A stretch of 42,799 nt of DNA from a virus, in IMG/VR virus record IMGVR_UViG_3300005288_000094, positions 1 to 42,799 of that record; one strand, 5' to 3'. Shown piece after piece: positions 3,695 to 36,825 of this stretch (positions are counted from its first letter, which is position 1; every line of letters starts with the position of its first letter). The notes beneath the pieces are model-generated. The model searched no databases. It saw nothing but the letters and a program-made list of their open reading frames with translations, and had not been told where the DNA came from. Both the position numbers and the translations under genes were made by a program.

Positions 3695-3765
3695 ATCGAT
3701 ATGAGCGAGTGGCCAGCTTGGCGTCTGCAAAACGCTGCACGTCGGTTCGAGTCCGACTATCGATT
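3695..3765 (+). tRNA. tRNA-Cys (anticodon GCA)
   Basis: A full cloverleaf can be drawn by hand. The acceptor stem ATCGATA (3695-3701) pairs perfectly with TATCGAT (3758-3764). The D arm is short (AGC/GCT). The anticodon stem GGCGT/ACGCT encloses loop CTGCAAA, giving anticodon GCA at 3727-3729. The T arm is GTCGG-TTCGAGT-CCGAC. The discriminator base is T73, the expected identity element for cysteinyl-tRNA synthetase. CCA is not encoded. The molecule is 71 nt including T73. The virion-associated role is unknown; many small phage proteins here are Cys-rich, which gives one possible reason to carry it. Confidence 0.9.
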
Positions 3766-3780
3766 CTTAGGAGCTCCCAG

Positions 3781-6553: not shown

Positions 6554-6573
6554 ATAGGGGTAGGTGATTGCTT

Positions 6574-8070
6574 GTGGCTCCTGTCCTGACGCCAGAAGAG
6601 GCAGCGGACAAGTTGAACTACCTGGAGATCACGCGTACGTCACGTGCTCAAGAGGCTGTTGAGCTGAAGCAGTATTTCCGTGGTGAGCAGCCGCTGAAAT
6701 ATGCGTCTCCCGAGTGGGCGGCAGAGCATCAGGCGAAGTTCCGGGATTTTTCGGACAACTGGTGCGAGGTGGTTGCCAACGCGAACGCTGAGCGGATTAA
6801 CCTGATTGGGTTCCGGCTGCCTGAAGACTATGGCGAGAAGGACGATTCGGGCATGTCGGAGGCTGAAAAGCTTCTGTGGGATGCGTGGCGTCGCGCTGGC
6901 ATGGAAGAGGGTATGCAGCAGGGATCCCTTGAGTCTGTCGTTGCCCGCCGAAGCTTCCTGTACGTGTGGGGTGCCGAGGATGGCGAGCCGGTCATTGCGT
7001 TCAAGGAGGCCGGCTCCTGCATCATCCAGTACGACCCGATCCGCCAGACTGACCCGATTTATGGGGTTGTCACGTGGGATGACCTGGATACGCAGCGGCA
7101 GTATGCGCACCTGTACACGAAGACGCAGGTTTTCGAGTTTTGGCGTACCCGGCTCCGGTTGAACACTCCCGGGCTGCTGCTGTCTGACGGGAACGTGACG
7201 CTGGCTGGCGGCTGGATTTTCGACGCTGAAGCTTCCGGCGATAATCACCTAGGCGTCGTGCCGCTGGTGGAGTTCCCGAACCGTCCGCAGCTCGGTCATG
7301 GTCCACTCTCGGATATTGCTGGCGTCCGGGCGATGCAGGATGCCATCAACCTGTTGTGGGCGTACCTGTTTGTTGCCGCGGACTATGCGTCGATGCCGGC
7401 GCGCGTGATTATGGGCCAGTCGCCGCCGAAGATTCCCCTGCTTGATGCGTCCGGGAACAAGATTGGCGAGCAGGTCATCGACGTGGAGCAGTTGGCTCGC
7501 GGGCGCATGTTGTGGCTGACTGGCCAGAATGCGAGCATCGGGCAGTGGGACGCGGCGAAACTGGACGTGTTCACTGATGTTGTAGAGCACGCCGTTGGTC
7601 ATATTGCCGCGCAGACCCGCACGCCGCCGCATTACCTTGTGTCGAACAAGGGGCTGTCTAACCTGTCCGGCGATGCGATCACGAACGCTGAGGCCGGGCT
7701 CGTGTCGAAGGTCAGGCAGACTATCAGCTACCTGAATCGTCCCGTGCGTGAGTCTTTCCGGCTGATCGCATTGCAGTTGGGCCAGAAGGCCCTGGCTGAG
7801 GCGTGCCGGGTTGGTACTCCGGACTGGGCCGACCCCGCGAACCGCTCTGATGCTCAGGCTGCGGACGCGATGCAGAAGAAGTCCACTATTGGCTACCCGT
7901 TCCAGTACTTGCTTGAAGAGGCTGGAAAGTCGCCGTCTGAGATCTCGCGGATTATGGACATGAAGGAGGACGAGACGCAGCGGAACATGGCCGCGGGTAT
8001 TGGTGACCTTCTGAATGCGTCCCAGCCGCCGCCCGTGAATCCGCCCGCCCCAGTTCCTGCTGAGGTTTAG
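6574..8070 (+). CDS. Portal protein (498 aa)
   Basis: The portal forms the dodecameric ring through which DNA enters and leaves the head. Family features seen are the long N-terminal part with IIQYDPIRQTDPIYGVV, the PLVEFPNRPQLGHGPLSDIAGVRAMQDAINLLWAYLFVAADY stretch, and the C-terminal HYLVSNKGLSNLSGDAI motif typical of SPP1/actinophage-type portals. I chose GTG 6574 because AGGTGA lies seven bases upstream; TTG 6568 would add two residues. The tail is Pro-rich. It is followed after 2 bp by the head morphogenesis gene. Confidence 0.9.
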   Translation: MAPVLTPEEAADKLNYLEITRTSRAQEAVELKQYFRGEQPLKYASPEWAAEHQAKFRDFSDNWCEVVANANAERINLIGFRLPEDYGEKDDSGMSEAEKLLWDAWRRAGMEEGMQQGSLESVVARRSFLYVWGAEDGEPVIAFKEAGSCIIQYDPIRQTDPIYGVVTWDDLDTQRQYAHLYTKTQVFEFWRTRLRLNTPGLLLSDGNVTLAGGWIFDAEASGDNHLGVVPLVEFPNRPQLGHGPLSDIAGVRAMQDAINLLWAYLFVAADYASMPARVIMGQSPPKIPLLDASGNKIGEQVIDVEQLARGRMLWLTGQNASIGQWDAAKLDVFTDVVEHAVGHIAAQTRTPPHYLVSNKGLSNLSGDAITNAEAGLVSKVRQTISYLNRPVRESFRLIALQLGQKALAEACRVGTPDWADPANRSDAQAADAMQKKSTIGYPFQYLLEEAGKSPSEISRIMDMKEDETQRNMAAGIGDLLNASQPPPVNPPAPVPAEV

Positions 8071-8072
8071 CC

Positions 8073-10079
8073 GTGGCGTCCGTCGCTGAGGTTGCTACTG
8101 ACTTTCAGGCGCGGCAGATCAGCCTTGCAGATCGAACCGCTGCGGCTGTGGTTGGTTTGTGGCGTGGCGTGAATCCGGCGTCAATGTCCGCGGGCTGGGG
8201 CAATGTCGCGTATCAGGCTGGCGTATTGGTGCAGCGGGCCCAGTTTGTAATGGCCGCGAATGTGGATCCGTACATGGAGTCCGTGGCGGGTGCGTTCGGC
8301 GCCGAGTCCATCACTGAGGCGGCACTGAGGCCCAATGGGTTCGCTGCCGGGTTCACTGACGACGGCCGATCCATGAACGGCCTGCTGCTGACGGGCCCGG
8401 TCAATGCCAAGCGGTCCATCGCGGGCGGCGCGACACTTACCGCTGCGATGGATGCCGGTGCTGCGGCGTTGCGGACTGCCGTGGAGTCGCAGATTGCCGG
8501 GGCTGGTTCTGCGGCGTCGATGGTGTCCATGTTCATGCGTGATGCACCACCGCCCGTGACTGCTGAGCCGATCAAGGGCGCTGGCGGGCGCATGTACATC
8601 AAGGGCTCGGATGGGCTCATGAAGCCGTACTTCCGGCCCAAGTCGTACGTGCGCATGGTGCAGGCGGGCGCGTGTTCCCGGTGCATCATCCTGGCGGGCA
8701 AGCGGTACGGCAAGGTGACGCCATTCGCTAGGCATCCACGCTGCTTCCCGGCCGGGACGATTGTCGCCGGCCCCGGCCTACTGGGCGCCACGCGGCGGTG
8801 GTACGAGGGGGAACTCACCACTCTCACTACCGCAAGCGGCGAGAACCTGTCCTTGACCGGTAATCACCCGGTACTGACACGTCGCGGGTGGGTTCCGGCG
8901 AGCCTCCTCCAGGAAGGTGACGATGTATTCCGCAGCGCCGGGACCGAGAGCGCTCACGCCCTCATAGTCCCAGACCATGATCAGGTGCCATCCCGCATTG
9001 AGGATGTATGGCGTTCGTTCAGCATGGCCGGCCTTGAGACTGTGCCAACCGCCGCCGAGTACTTCCACGGCGACGGGCAGGGCGGCGAGATCGACATTGT
9101 AAGGGCCGATGGCTCGCTGGGGGGTAACTTCCAGTCCATACTGTCGGCTGAGCATGGCGTAGAGCTCGGACTCTCCCTTGGATTGGGTCACTCCATTGAA
9201 TTCAACTCGCAGGGCGCGGCGGAGCTTGTCTATGGCGGGCATCTTTCGCTTGCGGGCGGCCTCGTTGGCGGCGCGCACTTGGAGCTTCCTTTCATCCTCG
9301 GTCATCGCGGCATTTCGCGTGACTTGGGCCTCGCCAGCGGTTCGCCGTTCGATCCCGGATTCCGCAAGGCGTCGGGCGATCACATTTCGCCCGACGCCAT
9401 ACTGGCGGGCGAGGGCATATTCGCTGGCGCCGGACTGATAGGCGGCAATGATGGCACTGACAGGAATCTCGACGGCCTTCCGCGTTGGGATGCCCCTAGC
9501 GGTCCTCTCACGATGGAGAACAGTGGCCGATACGCCAGCCTTGGCATTGATCTGCGGGATAGGCTCACCGGCCAGGTAGAGGCGGATCGCGTGGTCAAGC
9601 TTGTCCGTGCTGAGTTTAGGGGGCATGTGTACAGTCTCGATTCATCTGAGGGTTGGCACTCCGCCAACAATCTCATTGTATCAAATTGTCACTGCACGCA
9701 CATACCCGTTGACGAGGACATCGAGGACTACCCCGCGACGGACCCGAAAGCCTATTACGACTCACTGTCCCCTGGTGCCCGCGTGAAGGCGTTCGGCAAG
9801 GCTGGCGTGGAGGCTATCGACGCGGGCGCGGACATGAACCAGGTTGTCAACGCACGCCAAGGAATGTACGTCACCAAGTCGGGCCAGATGGCCACGCGCA
9901 TGGGGACGACGAAGCGCGGCCTGTATGGCGTGACGCAGACGGAGTTCACTAAGGATGGCGCGACGTCGAAGTATGGCCGCACGGTACAGGCGCGCCTCAT
10001 GCCTGAGGAAATCTTCAAGATTGCGCCAAGCCGCGAGGATGCCATCCGCCTACTGAGGCATTACGCCTACATTTTCTAA
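8073..10079 (+). CDS. MuF-type head morphogenesis protein interrupted by an intein (668 aa precursor)
   Basis: The start is GTG 8073 just after the portal stop. Residues 1-223 and 539-668 are the exteins (353 aa after splicing). The N-extein ends with the MuF core: CSRCIILAGKRYGK followed by RHPR. The C-extein begins CHCTHIPVDED, so splicing rebuilds the family motif HPRCHC. Residues 224-538 are an intein with its own evidence below. MuF proteins sit inside the head beside the portal and assist assembly or DNA ejection. Until splicing, the conserved Cys pair is separated from the HPR part, so the precursor should not fold properly. Gene order portal-MuF-scaffold-capsid is standard. Confidence 0.92.
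   Translation: MASVAEVATDFQARQISLADRTAAAVVGLWRGVNPASMSAGWGNVAYQAGVLVQRAQFVMAANVDPYMESVAGAFGAESITEAALRPNGFAAGFTDDGRSMNGLLLTGPVNAKRSIAGGATLTAAMDAGAAALRTAVESQIAGAGSAASMVSMFMRDAPPPVTAEPIKGAGGRMYIKGSDGLMKPYFRPKSYVRMVQAGACSRCIILAGKRYGKVTPFARHPRCFPAGTIVAGPGLLGATRRWYEGELTTLTTASGENLSLTGNHPVLTRRGWVPASLLQEGDDVFRSAGTESAHALIVPDHDQVPSRIEDVWRSFSMAGLETVPTAAEYFHGDGQGGEIDIVRADGSLGGNFQSILSAEHGVELGLSLGLGHSIEFNSQGAAELVYGGHLSLAGGLVGGAHLELPFILGHRGISRDLGLASGSPFDPGFRKASGDHISPDAILAGEGIFAGAGLIGGNDGTDRNLDGLPRWDAPSGPLTMENSGRYASLGIDLRDRLTGQVEADRVVKLVRAEFRGHVYSLDSSEGWHSANNLIVSNCHCTHIPVDEDIEDYPATDPKAYYDSLSPGARVKAFGKAGVEAIDAGADMNQVVNARQGMYVTKSGQMATRMGTTKRGLYGVTQTEFTKDGATSKYGRTVQARLMPEEIFKIAPSREDAIRLLRHYAYIF
8778..9626 (-). 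CDS. Vsr/EDxHD-like homing endonuclease encoded antisense inside the intein (282 aa)
   Basis: The protein has two helix-turn-helix-like units (about residues 10-47 and 53-93) followed by a basic linker and a Vsr-like nuclease core. The core shows GESELY (Glu152/Glu154), YNVDLA (Asp179), VAVEVLGGGWH (Glu188, His195), Arg204 and NAGWHLIMVW (210-219). This order matches the EDxHD/Vsr-type homing endonucleases represented by I-Bth0305I. Codons are in exact register with the intein: Asp179, Glu188 and His195 face intein Ile117, Phe108 and Val101. The C-terminal 36 residues, antisense to splicing blocks A/B, look unstructured. The start ATG (9624-9626) is antisense to intein His295; only a weak ribosome binding site is visible. 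It likely cuts intein-less MuF alleles. Confidence 0.88.
   Translation of the reverse strand: MPPKLSTDKLDHAIRLYLAGEPIPQINAKAGVSATVLHRERTARGIPTRKAVEIPVSAIIAAYQSGASEYALARQYGVGRNVIARRLAESGIERRTAGEAQVTRNAAMTEDERKLQVRAANEAARKRKMPAIDKLRRALRVEFNGVTQSKGESELYAMLSRQYGLEVTPQRAIGPYNVDLAALPVAVEVLGGGWHSLKAGHAERTPYILNAGWHLIMVWDYEGVSALGPGAAEYIVTFLEEARRNPPATCQYRVITGQGQVLAACGSESGEFPLVPPPRGAQ
9675..9683 (-). promoter_or_regulatory. Candidate extended -10 promoter for the antisense endonuclease
   Basis: On the minus strand the bases read TGATACAAT, an extended -10 (TGn followed by TACAAT, five of six matches to TATAAT). It lies about 50 bp upstream of the endonuclease ATG. On the plus strand these bases are the intein codons Ile312, Val313 and Ser314. 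No good -35 is seen. The surrounding codons are unusually AT-rich for this gene. The promoter is an inference. Confidence 0.35.
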
Positions 10080-10097
10080 CCAGGACGGAGCGCGATC

Positions 10098-10244
10098 ATG
10101 GCCCACACTGATCAGACCGGCACCACCCACCCGGACGCCGCCGACGCCGTAACAAGCGAGGGGCTGGAACACATCGACCATTGCGACGAGTGCAAGGCGC
10201 GCATGCCCTGGCTCTCCAGTAACCGGACTCCCAGTAGTCGGTAG
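10098..10244 (+). CDS. Small hypothetical protein with HxxxxC..C pattern (48 aa)
   Basis: GGAG lies seven bases upstream of ATG 10098. The product begins MAHTDQTGTTHPDAADAV and contains EHIDHCDECKARMP, a possible zinc site (HxDHCxxC). Small genes at this place between MuF and scaffold occur in related phages, without known role. A terminator-like hairpin follows. Confidence 0.55.
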   Translation: MAHTDQTGTTHPDAADAVTSEGLEHIDHCDECKARMPWLSSNRTPSSR

Positions 10245-10258
10245 CTATCAACCACCAC

Positions 10259-10289
10259 CAACCCCTTGCCGCAATGGCTGGGGGTTTTC
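10259..10289 (+). terminator. Terminator-like hairpin before the scaffold gene
   Basis: AACCCC pairs with GGGGTT and an inner GCC with GGC, giving a bulged stem followed by TTC and TT. It could be a partial terminator that lowers or separates transcription between the portal/MuF genes and the scaffold/capsid genes. The inner loop sequence CCGCAATGG recurs a few bases later as CCCGCAATGGG. Confidence 0.45.
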
Positions 10290-10325
10290 TTATGCCCGCA
10301 ATGGGCTGACGAATAGGAAAACACA

Positions 10326-11003
10326 ATGCCCGATCTCATCGCACCGCCCGCCGTAACCGATCCGCCCGCAGATCCGCCCGCGGATCCGGCAGGCACTCCC
10401 CCGGCAGATCCTCCCGTAGTCGATCCTGACGGCGTAGAGACGGACCCGGACGGCGCCGAAGCACTGGGTGATCCCGGTAAGCGCGCCCTGGATTCCATGA
10501 AGGCCAAGCTTGCCACCGAGAAGGCCGCAAAGAAGGCGCTTCAGGACAAGCTGGACGCACTCAGCGCGCCCAAGCCCGGCGACGAGCTCACCCCCGAGCA
10601 GATCAAGGCGGCGGCGAAAGCTGAAGCCATGGCCGAGCTCCGGGCGCCGCTGTTCCAGACGCAGGCGAAGTCCGCGGCGCTGGCTCTTGGGTTCAATGAC
10701 CCGGCCGACGCGCTGCTACTGCTGAGTGCAACAGATTTCGAGGTTGGTTCTGACGGCACGTTCGATGCCGAGGAACTGAACGACAAACTTTCCGACGTGC
10801 TGGCCGCAAAGCCGTACCTCGCGAAGAACAACCCAGCCGGGCAACCCGGCGACCCGGCACCGCGCACTGTGGCACCGGCCAAAGCAGGCGGATCCCCAAA
10901 GTCACCAACCATCGATGAGCGCATCGCGAAAGCACGCGCTGACGGTGATGTTGACCTCCAGATCAGCCTGCAAAACATGAAGCTCGCAAACGCGAGCCGA
11001 TAA
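10326..11003 (+). CDS. Scaffold protein (225 aa)
   Basis: TAGGAAAACACA precedes ATG 10326. The first 45 residues are a low-complexity Pro/Asp/Ala tract, followed by an Ala/Lys-rich coiled coil (about 58-110) and a C-terminal helix rich in charged residues (IDERIAKARADGDVDLQISLQNMKL). This composition and the position directly before the major capsid gene are typical of scaffolding proteins, which guide capsid assembly and then leave or are degraded. Confidence 0.85.
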   Translation: MPDLIAPPAVTDPPADPPADPAGTPPADPPVVDPDGVETDPDGAEALGDPGKRALDSMKAKLATEKAAKKALQDKLDALSAPKPGDELTPEQIKAAAKAEAMAELRAPLFQTQAKSAALALGFNDPADALLLLSATDFEVGSDGTFDAEELNDKLSDVLAAKPYLAKNNPAGQPGDPAPRTVAPAKAGGSPKSPTIDERIAKARADGDVDLQISLQNMKLANASR

Positions 11004-11027
11004 GTCCAACCTTTCTAAGGAGACATG

Positions 11028-12221
11028 ATGGCTGGAGCCATTACCGGGCTGGGAACAACCTATACCCTGCCGAACTACACGGGCGTGCTGTACCAGCTCA
11101 GCCCTTCCTCTACCCCGCTGTACTCTGCAATCGCGGGCAGCTCCAATGGCGGCGGGCAGGTTACGTCCACTGAATTTGAATGGGAGACTGCCGACCTGCG
11201 CGCACCCGATCAGAACGTTGCGCTTGAAGGTCAGGATGCGCCGAACTCTCAGGAGCGCATCCGTGGCAACGTGACCAACGTGGCGCAGATCCACCAGGAA
11301 ACTGTGGGCGTCAGCTACTCGAAGCTTGCCGCGTACGGGCAGAAGGCCGGCACGAACAACGCCGAGGTCAACCCGATCACAAACGAGCTGGATTGGCAGG
11401 TTCGCCAGATGCTCACGCAGATGGTGCGCGACATCAACTGGTCCTTCTGGAACGGCAAGTACAACAAGCCGACCGACAACACCACGAAGCGCCAGACTCG
11501 CGGCATCCTGTCCGCGCTGTCCACGAACAGGCTGACGGCTACGGGCTCCGTGGATTACACCGCGGCCACGTCGGCAACGGACACGATCACCGTGACTCAC
11601 GCACTCTCGGTGGGCGACAAGGTTGTGTTCACGAGCCGTGGCGGCGCGTCCGGCATTGTTGAGGGCCGCGTGTACTACGTGCAGTCCGTTTCCACCACCG
11701 TGTCATTCAAGGTGGCAGCTACCAGTGGCGGCACCGCTATCACGGTCGGCACTGGCGCGGGTATCGCGTTCACCAAGACCTCGGGCACGGCAACTACCCG
11801 CGACGTGATCAACAGCCTTGCTCAGTCCGTATGGGACAACGGTGGCGTGGACAACGAGATGCAGGCCGTGTTCGCGGTGAACTCGCAGCAGAAGGTGGCG
11901 ATCTCTCAGGCGTACGGCTCGCTGTACCAGGAGAACTCGCGCACCATCGGCGGCACGAACATCTCCACCGTCATCACGGACTTCGGAACCTTCGGCGTGA
12001 TGAAGGAGCGTGCGATCCGCCAGGACGCCATCGCTCTTGTCTCGCTGGATGAACTTCAGCCTGTATGGCTGGAAACTCCGGGCAAGGGTCACCTGTTCGC
12101 TGAGCCGCTGGCCAAGACTGGCGCGTTCGAAAAGACCATGCTGTACGGCGAAGTTGGCCTGAAGTACGGCGCCGAGTCGCACCACGGCATTATCACCGGC
12201 CTGAAGCTCCCGAACGCCTAG
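11028..12221 (+). CDS. Major capsid protein, SU10/DUF5309-like, with beta-rich insertion (397 aa)
   Basis: Two ATGs are adjacent; the second (11028) is five bases after AGGAG and is preferred. The sequence has the pattern of the SU10/DUF5309-type HK97-fold capsids: SSTPLYSAIAGSS near the start, EFEWETADL, DINWSFWNGKYN, and GEVGLKYGAESHHGII at the end. Residues about 166-256 are a Thr/Ser/Val-rich insertion (TDTITVTHALSVGDKVVF...GRVYYVQSVS) with beta-repeat character; it likely forms a surface domain. It is followed by connector genes. Confidence 0.9.
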   Translation: MAGAITGLGTTYTLPNYTGVLYQLSPSSTPLYSAIAGSSNGGGQVTSTEFEWETADLRAPDQNVALEGQDAPNSQERIRGNVTNVAQIHQETVGVSYSKLAAYGQKAGTNNAEVNPITNELDWQVRQMLTQMVRDINWSFWNGKYNKPTDNTTKRQTRGILSALSTNRLTATGSVDYTAATSATDTITVTHALSVGDKVVFTSRGGASGIVEGRVYYVQSVSTTVSFKVAATSGGTAITVGTGAGIAFTKTSGTATTRDVINSLAQSVWDNGGVDNEMQAVFAVNSQQKVAISQAYGSLYQENSRTIGGTNISTVITDFGTFGVMKERAIRQDAIALVSLDELQPVWLETPGKGHLFAEPLAKTGAFEKTMLYGEVGLKYGAESHHGIITGLKLPNA

Positions 12222-22931: not shown

Positions 22932-23284
22932 TGAGCGAGGACGTGACGCCCCGCGTGGCCGAGTCCGTGCCCGTCATGCTCGTCCGCATGGAGGGCAAGC
23001 TTGACCGCGTAAACGACAGGGTAGATGACCTCATCCCCCGAGTAAACAAGATCGAGGCCAGGCTCACCGCCCAGGAGATCCTGACTCTCAGCCTATCCAA
23101 GGATGCCGACGCGGAAGAGGCGAAGAAGATCGCACTTGCCCTTGCGCTCAAAGAGGCTGACGAAACCCGCCGCAACCAGTCGGAACGGTCATGGACACCC
23201 ATCCAAAGGTTCATGGCCGTCCTTGCCAGCATCATCGGCGCCGTAACCCTGGCCATCTACCTCTACTCAACCGTCAAGGGATAG
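22931..23284 (+). CDS. Coiled-coil protein with C-terminal TM segment (117 aa)
   Basis: A long helix of charged heptads (VMLVRMEGKLDRVNDRVDDLIPRVNKIEARL) is followed by a single membrane segment near residues 94-112 (FMAVLASIIGAVTLAIYLY). This layout is common next to endolysin genes in actinophages. It may be a holin accessory or spanin-like lysis protein. It overlaps the previous stop by one base and lies 8 bp before the lysin gene. Confidence 0.7.
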   Translation: MSEDVTPRVAESVPVMLVRMEGKLDRVNDRVDDLIPRVNKIEARLTAQEILTLSLSKDADAEEAKKIALALALKEADETRRNQSERSWTPIQRFMAVLASIIGAVTLAIYLYSTVKG

Positions 23285-23292
23285 GAGGCGTC

Positions 23293-24270
23293 GTGACGAT
23301 CACGCTTATGCGGCCCCACCGCGGCCCGGTAACCCAGCGGTACGGCAACATCCAGCCGGACGGCCTGCCCCACGCCGGGCAGGACTATGGCTACTCCGAC
23401 GAAAACGGGGTTTACCCGGAGATCTTCGCGGCCGCTGACGGCGTCGTCCTCTTCGCCGGGGACAGCCGGGATCTCGGATGGCCCAACGATTTCTACGTCA
23501 ACCCGGACTTCAACCGCAACGACGACGTAGACAACTCGGCCGGCAACCTCACCGTCATTGGACATTACGAGAGCGGGAAGCTTGTCGCCGTTACCGGCTA
23601 CGGGCACCAGGCATCCATCAGTGTCCACGCCGGCCAGTCAGTCCGCGCCAACCAGCAGATCGGCATCACCGGCGATACGGGCTACGCCTTCGGGAAGCAC
23701 CTGCACTTCTTCCTAATGCTCCTGCCCTACAACTACGCCACCCCAACGTATGGGTGCTCGGACCCCAACCCATATTTCGCCGACTCGCTGTCCTACGCGG
23801 GCGGACCAATCACACCCTTGGAGGACGACATGCCCATCACCGATACCGACGCCGCGAAGATCGCGGACGTCCTGCTTGACCGTGTCCGGGGCGAATCGAC
23901 CCTCGGACAGATGCTCTCTGAATACCGGGGTCACGCCCTCGACATCATCAGGGTCGTCAACCGGGTCCCGGACACGGTCTTGGATACCGCCGTGGCCGGT
24001 GTCGCGGGGGACAACAACACCCTCCGGCAGCTCCTCTCCGAATACCGCTCCCACATCCTGCAAATCGTGGGGGGCACAGCGAACGTCCCCAACGCCGTCC
24101 TGAACGCCCAGTTCACCCTCCCGGACGGCACCATCACCAACCTCGCGGGCATCCTCGCCGCGATCCACGCCCAACCTGTCACGACAGGGAACGTCAACAC
24201 CCCGAACGCCGACCCCCAAGCCATCGCCAAAGCCGTCCTCGACGGCATCCGGGACAAGTGGAGCAAGTAA
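23293..24270 (+). CDS. Endolysin with M23-type peptidase domain (325 aa)
   Basis: AGGAGG lies four bases before GTG 23293. The N-terminal 160 residues show the M23 metallopeptidase pattern: His27 and Asp31 (HAGQD), His105 in GYGHQ, and His136/His138 (HLHF). Such enzymes cut peptide bridges of peptidoglycan. The C-terminal half has an internal repeat, LGQMLSEYRGHALDIIRVVNRVPDTVL and LRQLLSEYRSHILQIVGGTANVPNAVL, which may mediate cell-wall binding or oligomerisation. The final Ala/Pro-rich tail is Q/N-rich. No signal peptide is seen, so release should need a holin. Confidence 0.85.
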   Translation: MTITLMRPHRGPVTQRYGNIQPDGLPHAGQDYGYSDENGVYPEIFAAADGVVLFAGDSRDLGWPNDFYVNPDFNRNDDVDNSAGNLTVIGHYESGKLVAVTGYGHQASISVHAGQSVRANQQIGITGDTGYAFGKHLHFFLMLLPYNYATPTYGCSDPNPYFADSLSYAGGPITPLEDDMPITDTDAAKIADVLLDRVRGESTLGQMLSEYRGHALDIIRVVNRVPDTVLDTAVAGVAGDNNTLRQLLSEYRSHILQIVGGTANVPNAVLNAQFTLPDGTITNLAGILAAIHAQPVTTGNVNTPNADPQAIAKAVLDGIRDKWSK

Positions 24271-27787: not shown

Positions 27788-28984
27788 TCAGTCGCGCGCC
27801 GGTTCGAGCATCTTGGACATCTGCTCAAGCGCTCCGGTCAGCCGCTTCATGTCCGGCTTGCTGCGGTAGGCCTTAGACATCTTGGTGGTGGAGTGGCCAA
27901 CGATGTCTTTGATCGTGTCCCAGTCCACCCCAGCCGCATCAAGCAGGTCTACAGCAGTATGCCGGGCGCCGTGAAGCACGACGTCGGACGGCAACCCCGC
28001 GCCGGCCAGCAGTTTCGCCCACTCGTCTGTAGCGGCGTCGGGGTCCCACGGCTCACCGTCGCGAGTAAATACCAGCCCATCCCCGCGCCCGTGCATGTGA
28101 AGCGCCAGGATGGACCGCAGCGGCTCAACCAGTGGTATTACCCGCTGGCCAGACTGTGACTTGGGGCGGGTCAGGTAGATCGTCCCGCGCATATGCCGGT
28201 ACTCATAATCGGCCGGAGCCTTTGATATGTCCGTGATGCGCTGGAGTTGCCAGCTCAAGTCGAGCGAGTCGGTTACGCGGTCAGCCTCAAGGCCTAGGAT
28301 CTCGCCACGTCGTGCGCCGGTCAGGAGATAGCAAGCCCATAGCGCACGATCCGTCCGGGCCGTCAGGTGCGCCATTAGCTCGATGGCCTGGTTGGTGCTG
28401 AGTGCGGCCTGCTCCACCTTGGCCTTACGTGGCGGATCAACCATCTCGCAGACGTTCCGCGTTGCCTTACCCTCGCGCATGGCAGTCTTGAGCGCGGATG
28501 ACAGGACCGCGTGCGCTTTGATGGCGGTGTCTGCCCCAACCATGGGCGTGCCCGGTGGCAGGTCTTTCTTCCCGCGCAACCCATGGGCCTTGGGCGTGGA
28601 CTGGATCTCCTTGAACATATGGCGCACGTGATCAGCCGTGAGTGAGTCGATCTTGTGATGCCCGATTAGTGGGATGATCCAGCCGTCCACAGTGGACTTG
28701 TAGGCGGCGTACGACTTGGGGCGGATCTCGGTAGGGGCGATGTCGTCAATCCAGCGACGCAGCCAGCGCTCAAGAGTCAGACTCGCCGTGGGTAAGTCGC
28801 CATGCTTACGTAGCTCGGACTTGAGAGCGTCCATCTCATTCAGTGCAGCGCTTTTGTCTTTGCGCCGGATGACCTTCTGCCGGCGCCGCCCATCCACGCC
28901 ACGTGGCAGCTCGATCCGGACAGTCCAGAAACCGCGGGCGTCTTTGAATAGAGAGCCCTCACCCTTGCCGCGAGTGCTAGCCAC
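27788..28984 (-). CDS. int: Tyrosine integrase (398 aa)
   Basis: The enzyme joins attP and attB through a 3'-phosphotyrosine intermediate. The N-terminal part is an arm-binding domain (STRGKGEGSLFKDARGFWTVRIELP, with a repeated KxxR pattern), followed by a SAM-like core-binding domain (LTLERWLRRWIDDIAPTEIRPKSYAAYKSTV). The catalytic domain shows Arg in LLTGARRGEILGLE, HxxR in LHGARHTAVDLLDAAG, GHSTTKMSKAYRS with the nucleophile Tyr. I prefer GTG 28984 because GAGGTG lies seven bases upstream and its codons overlap the preceding TAG; ATG 29002 would add six residues. Confidence 0.93.
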   Translation of the reverse strand: MASTRGKGEGSLFKDARGFWTVRIELPRGVDGRRRQKVIRRKDKSAALNEMDALKSELRKHGDLPTASLTLERWLRRWIDDIAPTEIRPKSYAAYKSTVDGWIIPLIGHHKIDSLTADHVRHMFKEIQSTPKAHGLRGKKDLPPGTPMVGADTAIKAHAVLSSALKTAMREGKATRNVCEMVDPPRKAKVEQAALSTNQAIELMAHLTARTDRALWACYLLTGARRGEILGLEADRVTDSLDLSWQLQRITDISKAPADYEYRHMRGTIYLTRPKSQSGQRVIPLVEPLRSILALHMHGRGDGLVFTRDGEPWDPDAATDEWAKLLAGAGLPSDVVLHGARHTAVDLLDAAGVDWDTIKDIVGHSTTKMSKAYRSKPDMKRLTGALEQMSKMLEPARD

Positions 28985-29147
28985 GGCCAGCCACCTCACC
29001 ATGTTCCAGAGCGGCTTTCGCTTCGGTCTTGGTGCGGAACCCGCCGAAGGTCACGGCGCCGCAAGTCTCGCAGCTCGCCGCGTAGCCCTCGTGTTGGCCC
29101 TGATCTCCGGATGTTCCGCGCTCGAACGCGACAGCCTTGTGCTTCAT
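28977..29147 (-). CDS. Small Cys-pair protein upstream of integrase (56 aa)
   Basis: AAGGGG lies six bases before the start at 29147 (MKHKAVAFERG). It has SCETCGAVTFGGFRTKTEAKAALEHGEVAG, a CxxC zinc-knuckle-like segment followed by a helix. It overlaps the integrase by 8 bp, implying translational coupling. It may be a recombination directionality or regulatory factor; this is inference only. A longer start at 29186 would run through the arm-type repeats. Confidence 0.6.
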   Translation of the reverse strand: MKHKAVAFERGTSGDQGQHEGYAASCETCGAVTFGGFRTKTEAKAALEHGEVAGRG

Positions 29148-36009: not shown

Positions 36010-36825
36010 ATGAGCTTGGAAATATTCAACTTCGAACAAGGAACGCCGGAGTGGTTCGCCGCCAGATGTGGCGTCGTTACGGCATCCGTCGCCGGCCAAT
36101 TCGTTTCATCACGCCAGCCAACAGCCATCGAGTCAGACTGTCCCGAGTGTGGGGCATCCGCGGCCAGCCCGTGTATTGGCAAGCGGTCACCTGAGCCGAT
36201 CAAAACGCTGCACCCGGCACGCGCATCAGCAGCCCGCGACATGCCGCGAAGGATCACCGCCGACATTGACGGCGACGTAGCAAGGGGGCTAGTGACCCTA
36301 TTGGTATCCGAGCGCATCACGGGGCTAGTCGAAGAAACCCCTACGAGTCAGGCAATGCTCAGGGGCCAGCTTGACGAGCCGTACGCCAGAGACGCATACG
36401 GAGAGCACCACGCGCCCGTCGATCAAGTCGGGTTCATGGTCCGTTCCGATTGGGGCTATCGGATTGGCTACTCTCCCGATGGCTTGGTGGGCGATGACGG
36501 GTTGATTGAGATCAAGTCACGCGCCCCGAAGAAACATGTTGCCACGATCCTGGCCGATGAAGTGCCCGCCGAGAATATGGCCCAGTGTCAGGCCGGGCTT
36601 CTCGTATCCGGCCGCGAATGGCTGGACTACGTGAGCTTTTGCGGAGGGCTGCCACTGTGGACGAAGCGCGTATTTCCAGACGAGCGATGGCAGTTCGCCA
36701 TCATCGAAGCCGTTCAAATCTTCGAGGAAAACGCGGCATCCATGATCGGCCGCTATGAGTCGGCCGTCAAAGGCCTGCCACTCACCGAACGCATCGACCA
36801 CTTCGCAGAAATGGAGATTTTCTGA
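36010..36825 (+). CDS. YqaJ-type exonuclease (lambda Exo fold) (271 aa)
   Basis: The enzyme would digest 5' ends of double-stranded DNA to give 3' tails for recombination. The N-terminal motif is GTPEWFAARCGVVTAS (residues 11-26). The catalytic residues are Asp157 (GYSPDGLV), Glu167 and Lys169 (LIEIKSR), with the later QCQAGLLVSGREWLDYVSF segment (about 197-215). A zinc-ribbon-like insertion with CPECGASAASPC lies between residues 44 and 57. GGGG precedes the start. The gene begins the recombination/replication operon. Confidence 0.9.
   Translation: MSLEIFNFEQGTPEWFAARCGVVTASVAGQFVSSRQPTAIESDCPECGASAASPCIGKRSPEPIKTLHPARASAARDMPRRITADIDGDVARGLVTLLVSERITGLVEETPTSQAMLRGQLDEPYARDAYGEHHAPVDQVGFMVRSDWGYRIGYSPDGLVGDDGLIEIKSRAPKKHVATILADEVPAENMAQCQAGLLVSGREWLDYVSFCGGLPLWTKRVFPDERWQFAIIEAVQIFEENAASMIGRYESAVKGLPLTERIDHFAEMEIF

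Follow-up and report, generated by a model that had tools for sequence, protein, structure and literature searches.

A phage head-gene intein opposed codon against codon by a putative endonuclease gene, with constraint unevenly shared between the strands

A split head gene and its opposing products

We analyzed a 42,799-base virus record, IMGVR_UViG_3300005288_000094, referred to in its entirety as the window. The product of its plus-strand head gene (Table 1) matches phrog_1522, head maturation protease, with E 2.3e-61. The gene is flanked by those encoding the portal (6568-8070) and major head (11025-12221) proteins, and an intein interrupts it directly after RHPR. Phage Rowa carries an intein-free allele: there the same head gene is unbroken and reads RHPKCDC. 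Elsewhere the window encodes a tRNA-Cys with anticodon GCA upstream of the terminase gene (3695-3766, plus strand), an endolysin (23191-24267), a RecE-like exonuclease (36010-36822) and an integrase-like protein (27791-29002, minus strand; phrog_1, E 3.1e-53), on account of which we consider the phage probably temperate.

Table 1. Features of the head-gene locus, in window coordinates (strand "." denotes zones described for both strands)
Feature	Position	Strand	Remarks
Host head gene	8073..10079	+	Head maturation protease / MuF-like head protein, split by intein
Class 1-like intein, 315 aa	8742..9686	+	Sequence motifs, Hint-fold model, Pfam
Intein block A, outside endonuclease	8742..8777	+	Plus-strand constraint only
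Antisense endonuclease gene (putative), 282 aa	8778..9626	-	Two helix-turn-helix-like N-terminal units and Vsr-fold nuclease
Endonuclease 260-282	8781..8849	.	Intein constrained; nuclease near-passive in distant relatives, constrained in window's clade
Clade-specific endonuclease C-terminal motif EFPLxPPPRG, residues 271-280	8787..8816	-	Null test
Doubly constrained: block B versus endonuclease strand 251-255 and G257/G259	8850..8891	.	Null ratios, ACC lock
Doubly constrained: endonuclease 176-245 versus intein IEDV and FHGDG region	8892..9101	.	Locks, codon positions, null
Intein motif FHGDG	9063..9077	+	Opposite endonuclease residues 184-188, including conserved AVE
Endonuclease-only constraint, residues 50-175; intein 121-246 passive	9102..9479	-	Null, more changes at position 1 than position 3, pLDDT
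Endonuclease 1-49 versus intein segment before block F	9480..9626	.	Both constrained, leaning plus in close relatives
Endonuclease start codon ATG	9624..9626	-	Antisense to His codon CAT of block F (GHVY)
Expected ribosome-binding region of endonuclease	9627..9650	-	Antisense to block F; weak in window, strong in most relatives

The intein reads, in order, CFPAG (with Cys1), TGNHPVLT (block B), GHVYSL (block F) and IVSN, followed by Cys+1 at 9687-9689. Cys1, the T..H of block B, the terminal Asn and Cys+1 are all present in the window and invariant across 35 aligned members, though these were selected in part on Cys1, the Asn, Cys+1 and a relaxed form of block B. The Pfam profile Intein_splicing matches 29 of 30 family members at E<=0.01 and the window's intein at E 0.0019, below the curated cut-off. 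An AlphaFold2 model of the intein (mean pLDDT 64.3) is confident at both ends (residues 1-65 and 250-316), of moderate confidence over ~80-125, and shows disorder across 126-244 (pLDDT <50). Its fold is of the Hint type, with a splicing region at each terminus, and aligns to the Hedgehog autoprocessing domain with Z 12.1 and to solved inteins with Z up to 11.7 (e.g., 2imz, 106 residues, 1.4 A). Motifs and modeled fold together place the element in class 1 and predict self-splicing. No endonuclease domain lies in frame within it; the nuclease is on the other strand, and in-frame residues 126-244 are those predicted to be disordered.

For the minus-strand protein, Pfam searches gave HTH_7 (E 0.0006) and MTES_1575 (PF18741; E 0.009), the latter at 16.6 bits against a cut-off of 38.2. 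Among 36 family members, 27 match MTES_1575 at E<=0.01 (best E 1.8e-10), and many match helix-turn-helix families. The AlphaFold2 model (mean pLDDT 91.2, pTM 0.64) shows a Vsr-like catalytic fold: it aligns to Vsr endonuclease (1cw0, Z 10.2, 110 residues, over model residues 147-266; also 1vsr, Z 9.4) and, among homing endonucleases, to I-Bth0305I (3r3p; Z 9.5, 91 residues). A Foldseek search with the model returned 3hrl (E 0.006) and 3r3p (E 0.023), with no match at E<=0.001. Residues N177, D179, E188 and R204 are conserved, to within rounding, in all 82 distinct sequences of the family; E152, D179, E188 and H195, candidates for the catalytic set of the EDxHD family, reach 94, 100, 100 and 94%. 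We regard the antisense product as a putative Vsr-fold nuclease. An earlier note on this DNA ended its core near residue 245 and took the last 37 residues to be unstructured. That is wrong: strands are predicted at 251-255 and 261-266, the Vsr alignment runs to 266, and block pLDDT stays at 80-95 up to residue 280.

An opposing frame kept open across the family

The antisense reading frame overlaps the intein within the head gene just as the earlier note described, plus-strand TGNH (8856-8867) facing endonuclease residues 257-254. The two frames lie codon on codon, such that plus position 1 pairs with minus position 3 and middle bases face each other. In this phase the sole nuclease codons that would stop the intein frame are TTA, CTA and TCA; all have synonyms, making the arrangement easy to keep.

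We collected relatives through nuclease scans, which yielded 13, 10 and 207 loci (the best 80 of the 207 were kept), and through tblastn, which found 126 phage records with endonuclease relatives. The resulting 95 related loci (L002-L096) comprise 91 from the scans and 4 from phage records found by tblastn. Removal of 14 near-duplicates from a sample of 96 sequences left the 82 distinct ones. Every one of the 95 loci has a stop-free frame facing the nuclease in this phase, whereas the remaining two antisense frames carry 2-38 stops each, and the overlap is therefore not a matter of chance. Relatives with a GC content of 0.42-0.48 also keep the opposing frame open. The 82 distinct endonuclease genes contain no TTA, CTA or TCA, against 426.5 expected; openness is thus maintained by synonymous choice. 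In three of the 95 loci (L072, L073, L092) the nuclease match has one internal stop while the head-gene frame is still open, and we list these as candidates for decaying nuclease alleles.

The phages of the family infect Gordonia, Mycobacterium, Salmonella, Escherichia, Klebsiella, Pseudomonas, Vibrio and Aggregatibacter. In 14 of 14 annotated phage records examined that have a nuclease match, the nuclease lies on the strand opposite a long CDS. The sole annotation it bears in Salmonella phage PK2 (L180, 1411-2220) is that of a hypothetical protein, in overlap with the head gene. Scanning with the intein gave 523 relatives, and the best 80 of these all have a long, near-full-length antisense frame in the same phase. 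A DNA-level search of phages gave no match, and a plasmid search gave two records. The same element occurs in a bacterial contig of Microbacterium sp. CSI-V (L019); it is nearly identical to a viral contig (L011), from which we conclude that it probably sits in a prophage.

Putative expression signals for the nuclease also recur within the block F codons. Opposite the first block F residue (His, rarely Gln), a start codon is found in 71 of 72 loci (ATG 53, GTG 16, TTG 2, other 1); the other 10 of the 82 were omitted from this count, the intein end or the block having been missed by the pattern search. Upstream of the start, on the strand antisense to block F, Shine-Dalgarno 4-mers or better are present in 49 of 60 loci, compared with a mean of 17.9 when synonymous codons were resampled (maximum over 2000 runs, 29), and GGAGG in 23 of 60 compared with 7.8 (maximum 17). 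CTC encodes the block F Leu in 50 of 60 loci, compared with 24% in exteins, a codon count from which 22 of the 82 were omitted because the pattern search missed the block or the intein end. The window's own ribosome site is weak (duplex -3.0 kcal/mol). A search of 9500-10700 for a promoter-like site found none, in what is a weak test for a GC-rich phage.

Constraint on each strand

The earlier note proposed that in each zone of the overlap one protein is constrained and the other passively encoded, with plus-strand selection at the ends and minus-strand selection across 8880-9620. We examined codon positions in 25 distinct relatives at >=45% identity (57 of the 82 being excluded), in which codon homology derived from the plus frame matches that from the minus frame at 97.8%, counting parsimony (Fitch) changes per codon and taking log2(position 3/position 1) on plus codons. 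This value is +0.53 in the N-extein and +0.60 in the C-extein, and it reaches +1.93 in block A outside the nuclease (8742-8777; 2.50, 1.83 and 9.50 changes per codon at positions 1, 2 and 3) and +1.75 in blocks F-G outside the nuclease. Opposite the nuclease it is +0.41 at residues 260-282 (interval -0.18 to +1.11), +0.40 at 246-259 (-0.68 to +1.50), -0.04 at 209-245 (-0.46 to +0.37), -0.68 at 176-208, -0.60 at 130-175, -0.80 at 90-129, -0.88 at 50-89, +0.44 at 21-49 and +0.52 at 1-20 (-0.22 to +1.19); several of the end-zone intervals include zero. The predicted change of sign between the intein-only ends and 9003-9479 is present. Minus-strand selection had been expected at 8892-9002 and 9480-9626 too, but the value lies near 0 in the first of these stretches and between +0.4 and +0.5 in the second.

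We also compared each protein with a null of passive encoding, in which the other protein was held fixed, its synonymous codons were resampled from each gene's own usage, and the identity of the facing protein was compared with that observed. For the distant sequences, the nuclease served as the basis of the zone alignments. The z-values of this test are inflated because related sequences are treated as independent, and the ratio of ~1.00 in 9102-9479 serves as an internal control. Over nuclease residues 130-175, 90-129 and 50-89, observed/null for the intein is 0.98, 1.00 and 1.00, with 1.90-2.27 for the nuclease (82 sequences), and the intein is therefore passive there; this zone coincides with the disordered intein residues 126-244. 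Elsewhere among the 82 sequences the nuclease and intein ratios are 1.64 and 1.46 at residues 1-20, 1.50 and 1.26 at 21-49, 1.95 and 1.46 at 176-208, 1.55 and 1.36 at 209-245, 1.65 and 2.03 at 246-259, 1.14 and 1.84 at 260-269, and 1.22 and 1.97 at 270-282. On passing from the 57 distant to the 25 close sequences, the nuclease ratio rises from 1.16 to 1.37 at 260-269 and from 1.12 to 1.59 at 270-282.

The nuclease tail is conserved independently of the intein, a result the earlier note had named as contrary to its proposal, at residues 252-259 family-wide and in parts of 267-280 within the window's clade. Tail residues Y252, R253, V254, G257 and G259 exceed the null in the 82 sequences, Y252 and G259 being conserved although the opposite intein residue varies. 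Among the 25 sequences of the window's clade, the EFPLxPPPRG residues P277, P278, R279 and G280 (p=0.0002) and P273 (p=0.0005) exceed it as well; several other tail columns there do not reach significance.

At conserved residues with four synonymous codons, the third base reveals whether the other strand matters. It is free at nuclease G20, A138, G212 and G259 and at intein G8886 and T8877. It is locked at nuclease A186 (GCC, 80 of 80), V187 (GTG, 69 of 71), V254 (GTG, 76 of 76) and G257 (GGT, 75 of 75) and at intein T8856 (ACC, 75 of 79) and P8868, with milder departures, likewise below the corrected threshold, at nuclease G45, G66, A181, G191 and G192 and intein G8916. The codon for E188 is GAA in 76 of 82. 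Judged by these locks, neither strand leaves block B or FHGDG free to vary; a lock that faces a Trp codon is dictated by the genetic code itself and gives no clue to which strand leads.

Both frames are thus held open and both products are under purifying selection, with the constraint unevenly shared. The sequence is kept for the intein at the splicing ends, residues ~1-120 and ~246-315, and for the nuclease at residues ~1-259, extending to ~280 in the window's clade. A passive intein stretch exists, as the earlier note proposed, yet it spans 9102-9479 rather than 8880-9620 and covers only about residues 121-246. The same note saw no recognizable intein function in residues 61-285, which does not hold: residues ~61-120 carry the conserved pattern PD..VP..IEDV...VP..PEDFHGDG..G.V.VV and are partly ordered in the model, and ~250-285 are ordered. 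The FHGDG and IEDV stretches likewise rule out a plus frame unconstrained through the whole nuclease core. FHGDG is not known to be one of the splicing blocks; we sought family inteins without the antisense nuclease to judge its role, and there are none among the best 80 of the 523. A passive nuclease stretch amounts at most to 8781-8849, and within the window's clade it is shorter still. Much of 8778-8895, where the earlier note set a division between the strands, is doubly constrained. We rejected the tail as a free rider in view of its predicted strands, its excess over the null and the locked EFPLxPPPRG.

A proposed mobile element and the readings that compete with it

On sequence and modeled structure, we propose that a mobile intein occupies this phage head gene and that a homing endonuclease gene lies antisense to it, codon against codon, with constraint unevenly divided between the two (probability roughly 0.85). 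The head protein would be made from the plus strand, with the intein splicing itself out, and an antisense transcript would supply the nuclease, its translation beginning within block F. Cleavage of alleles lacking the intein, at their HPxC|xC codons, would be followed by repair that copies the element. We further think it likely that the pair is phage-wide and long-standing and that both products are functional; the conserved AVE lies opposite a conserved intein motif, the last nuclease strand opposite block B, and the start and ribosome site opposite block F. Exteins and nucleases have diverged discordantly: L006 and L030 share 94% identity in their exteins and 59% in their nucleases, L004 and L005 share 81-83% and 55% with L029, and L003 and L013 share 27% and 66%. 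One member of the Guernseyvirinae is described as having no inteins, unlike others of the subfamily (PMC6763661). Such discordance, together with intein-free alleles, is consistent with horizontal replacement, without thereby proving homing.

A strict division of labor, with one protein constrained in each zone, the other passive and endonuclease residues 245-282 a free rider, accounts for 9102-9479 and roughly, in the 57 distant sequences, for 8781-8849. We consider it improbable as a whole, and it is already refuted for 8850-8891: neither protein is passive by the null test at 8850-9101 or 9480-9626, and the tail contains predicted strands, residues conserved opposite variable intein positions (Y252, G259) and, in the window's clade, a locked motif. 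If the doubly constrained stretches were instead retained for a nucleic-acid feature, such as RNA structure or a protein binding site, the start and ribosome-site region would partly qualify; but the locks obey amino-acid logic on each strand, with degenerate positions free opposite residues 247 and 250 and fixed opposite G257 and A186, and we hold this explanation to be very unlikely.

Codon bias in a GC-rich genome might generate an antisense frame that is no gene. Other long antisense frames do run over the head gene outside the intein (8181-8735 and 8213-8827, both minus strand), and by themselves such frames mean little in this genome. Nearly all probability is nonetheless removed from a chance frame by its persistence at low GC where other antisense frames accumulate up to 38 stops, by invariant residues of catalytic type, by a position bias reversed to the minus strand and by the absence of stop-creating codons. 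The nuclease might also serve another role, for example the exclusion of competing phages, with the intein merely a shelter and homing secondary or lost. Internal stops in just three of 95 loci are fewer than a decaying homing gene might show, but a location inside an intein, discordant exteins and nucleases, intein-free alleles and kinship to I-Bth0305I all fit homing, and we rate another role as unlikely.

Canonical inteins combine a splicing domain with an in-frame homing endonuclease domain and insert in conserved motifs of key genes. The mobile intein proposed here resembles them in its splicing domain, homing-type nuclease and conserved-motif insertion in a key gene, and differs in that the nuclease is neither fused to the splicing domain nor on the same strand. 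Its nuclease shares a fold with I-Bth0305I and the DUF559/MTES_1575 nucleases, from which its N-terminal helix-turn-helix units and nested antisense location set it apart. Escherichia phage Snoke (L178) has a Guernseyvirinae head-gene intein of the same family and site, annotated as 273 residues; unlike the annotation presented here, its record includes no annotated antisense nuclease. In our literature search we found no antisense endonuclease inside an intein, and a 2025 preprint (Gosselin et al., on actinobacteriophage inteins with "non-canonical architecture") may overlap with these findings.

The nearest described systems are same-strand HNH insertions (PMC11855218) and antisense endonuclease genes of group I introns (PMC9548176). 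The former, found in phage methylases, include the ShiLan domain and other out-of-frame HNH insertions like it, in which a homing-type endonuclease gene likewise overlaps an in-frame insertion of a phage gene with both frames open; those cases have an HNH nuclease on the same strand in another frame and no intein motifs, whereas here the nuclease is on the opposite strand, its fold is Vsr-type and a full Hint-fold intein is present (PMC11855218). I-DsqI, in nuclear group I introns, is similarly encoded antisense to a self-splicing host element, but its host, as portrayed there, is an RNA intron in rDNA without protein-coding duty, while here both strands code for protein (PMC9548176).

Overlapping genes are usually judged on one strand only. 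How two folds share one duplex can be measured here in a family spread over many phages, a natural experiment with replicates and, in its passive zone, an internal control. The arrangement, as read from sequence, uncouples the intein from its endonuclease in expression and could time the nuclease apart from the late head gene. Sense/antisense coding has reportedly been proposed for early genes in the Rodin-Ohno idea; if the codon-against-codon pair is what we believe it to be, it would constitute a natural case of such coding.
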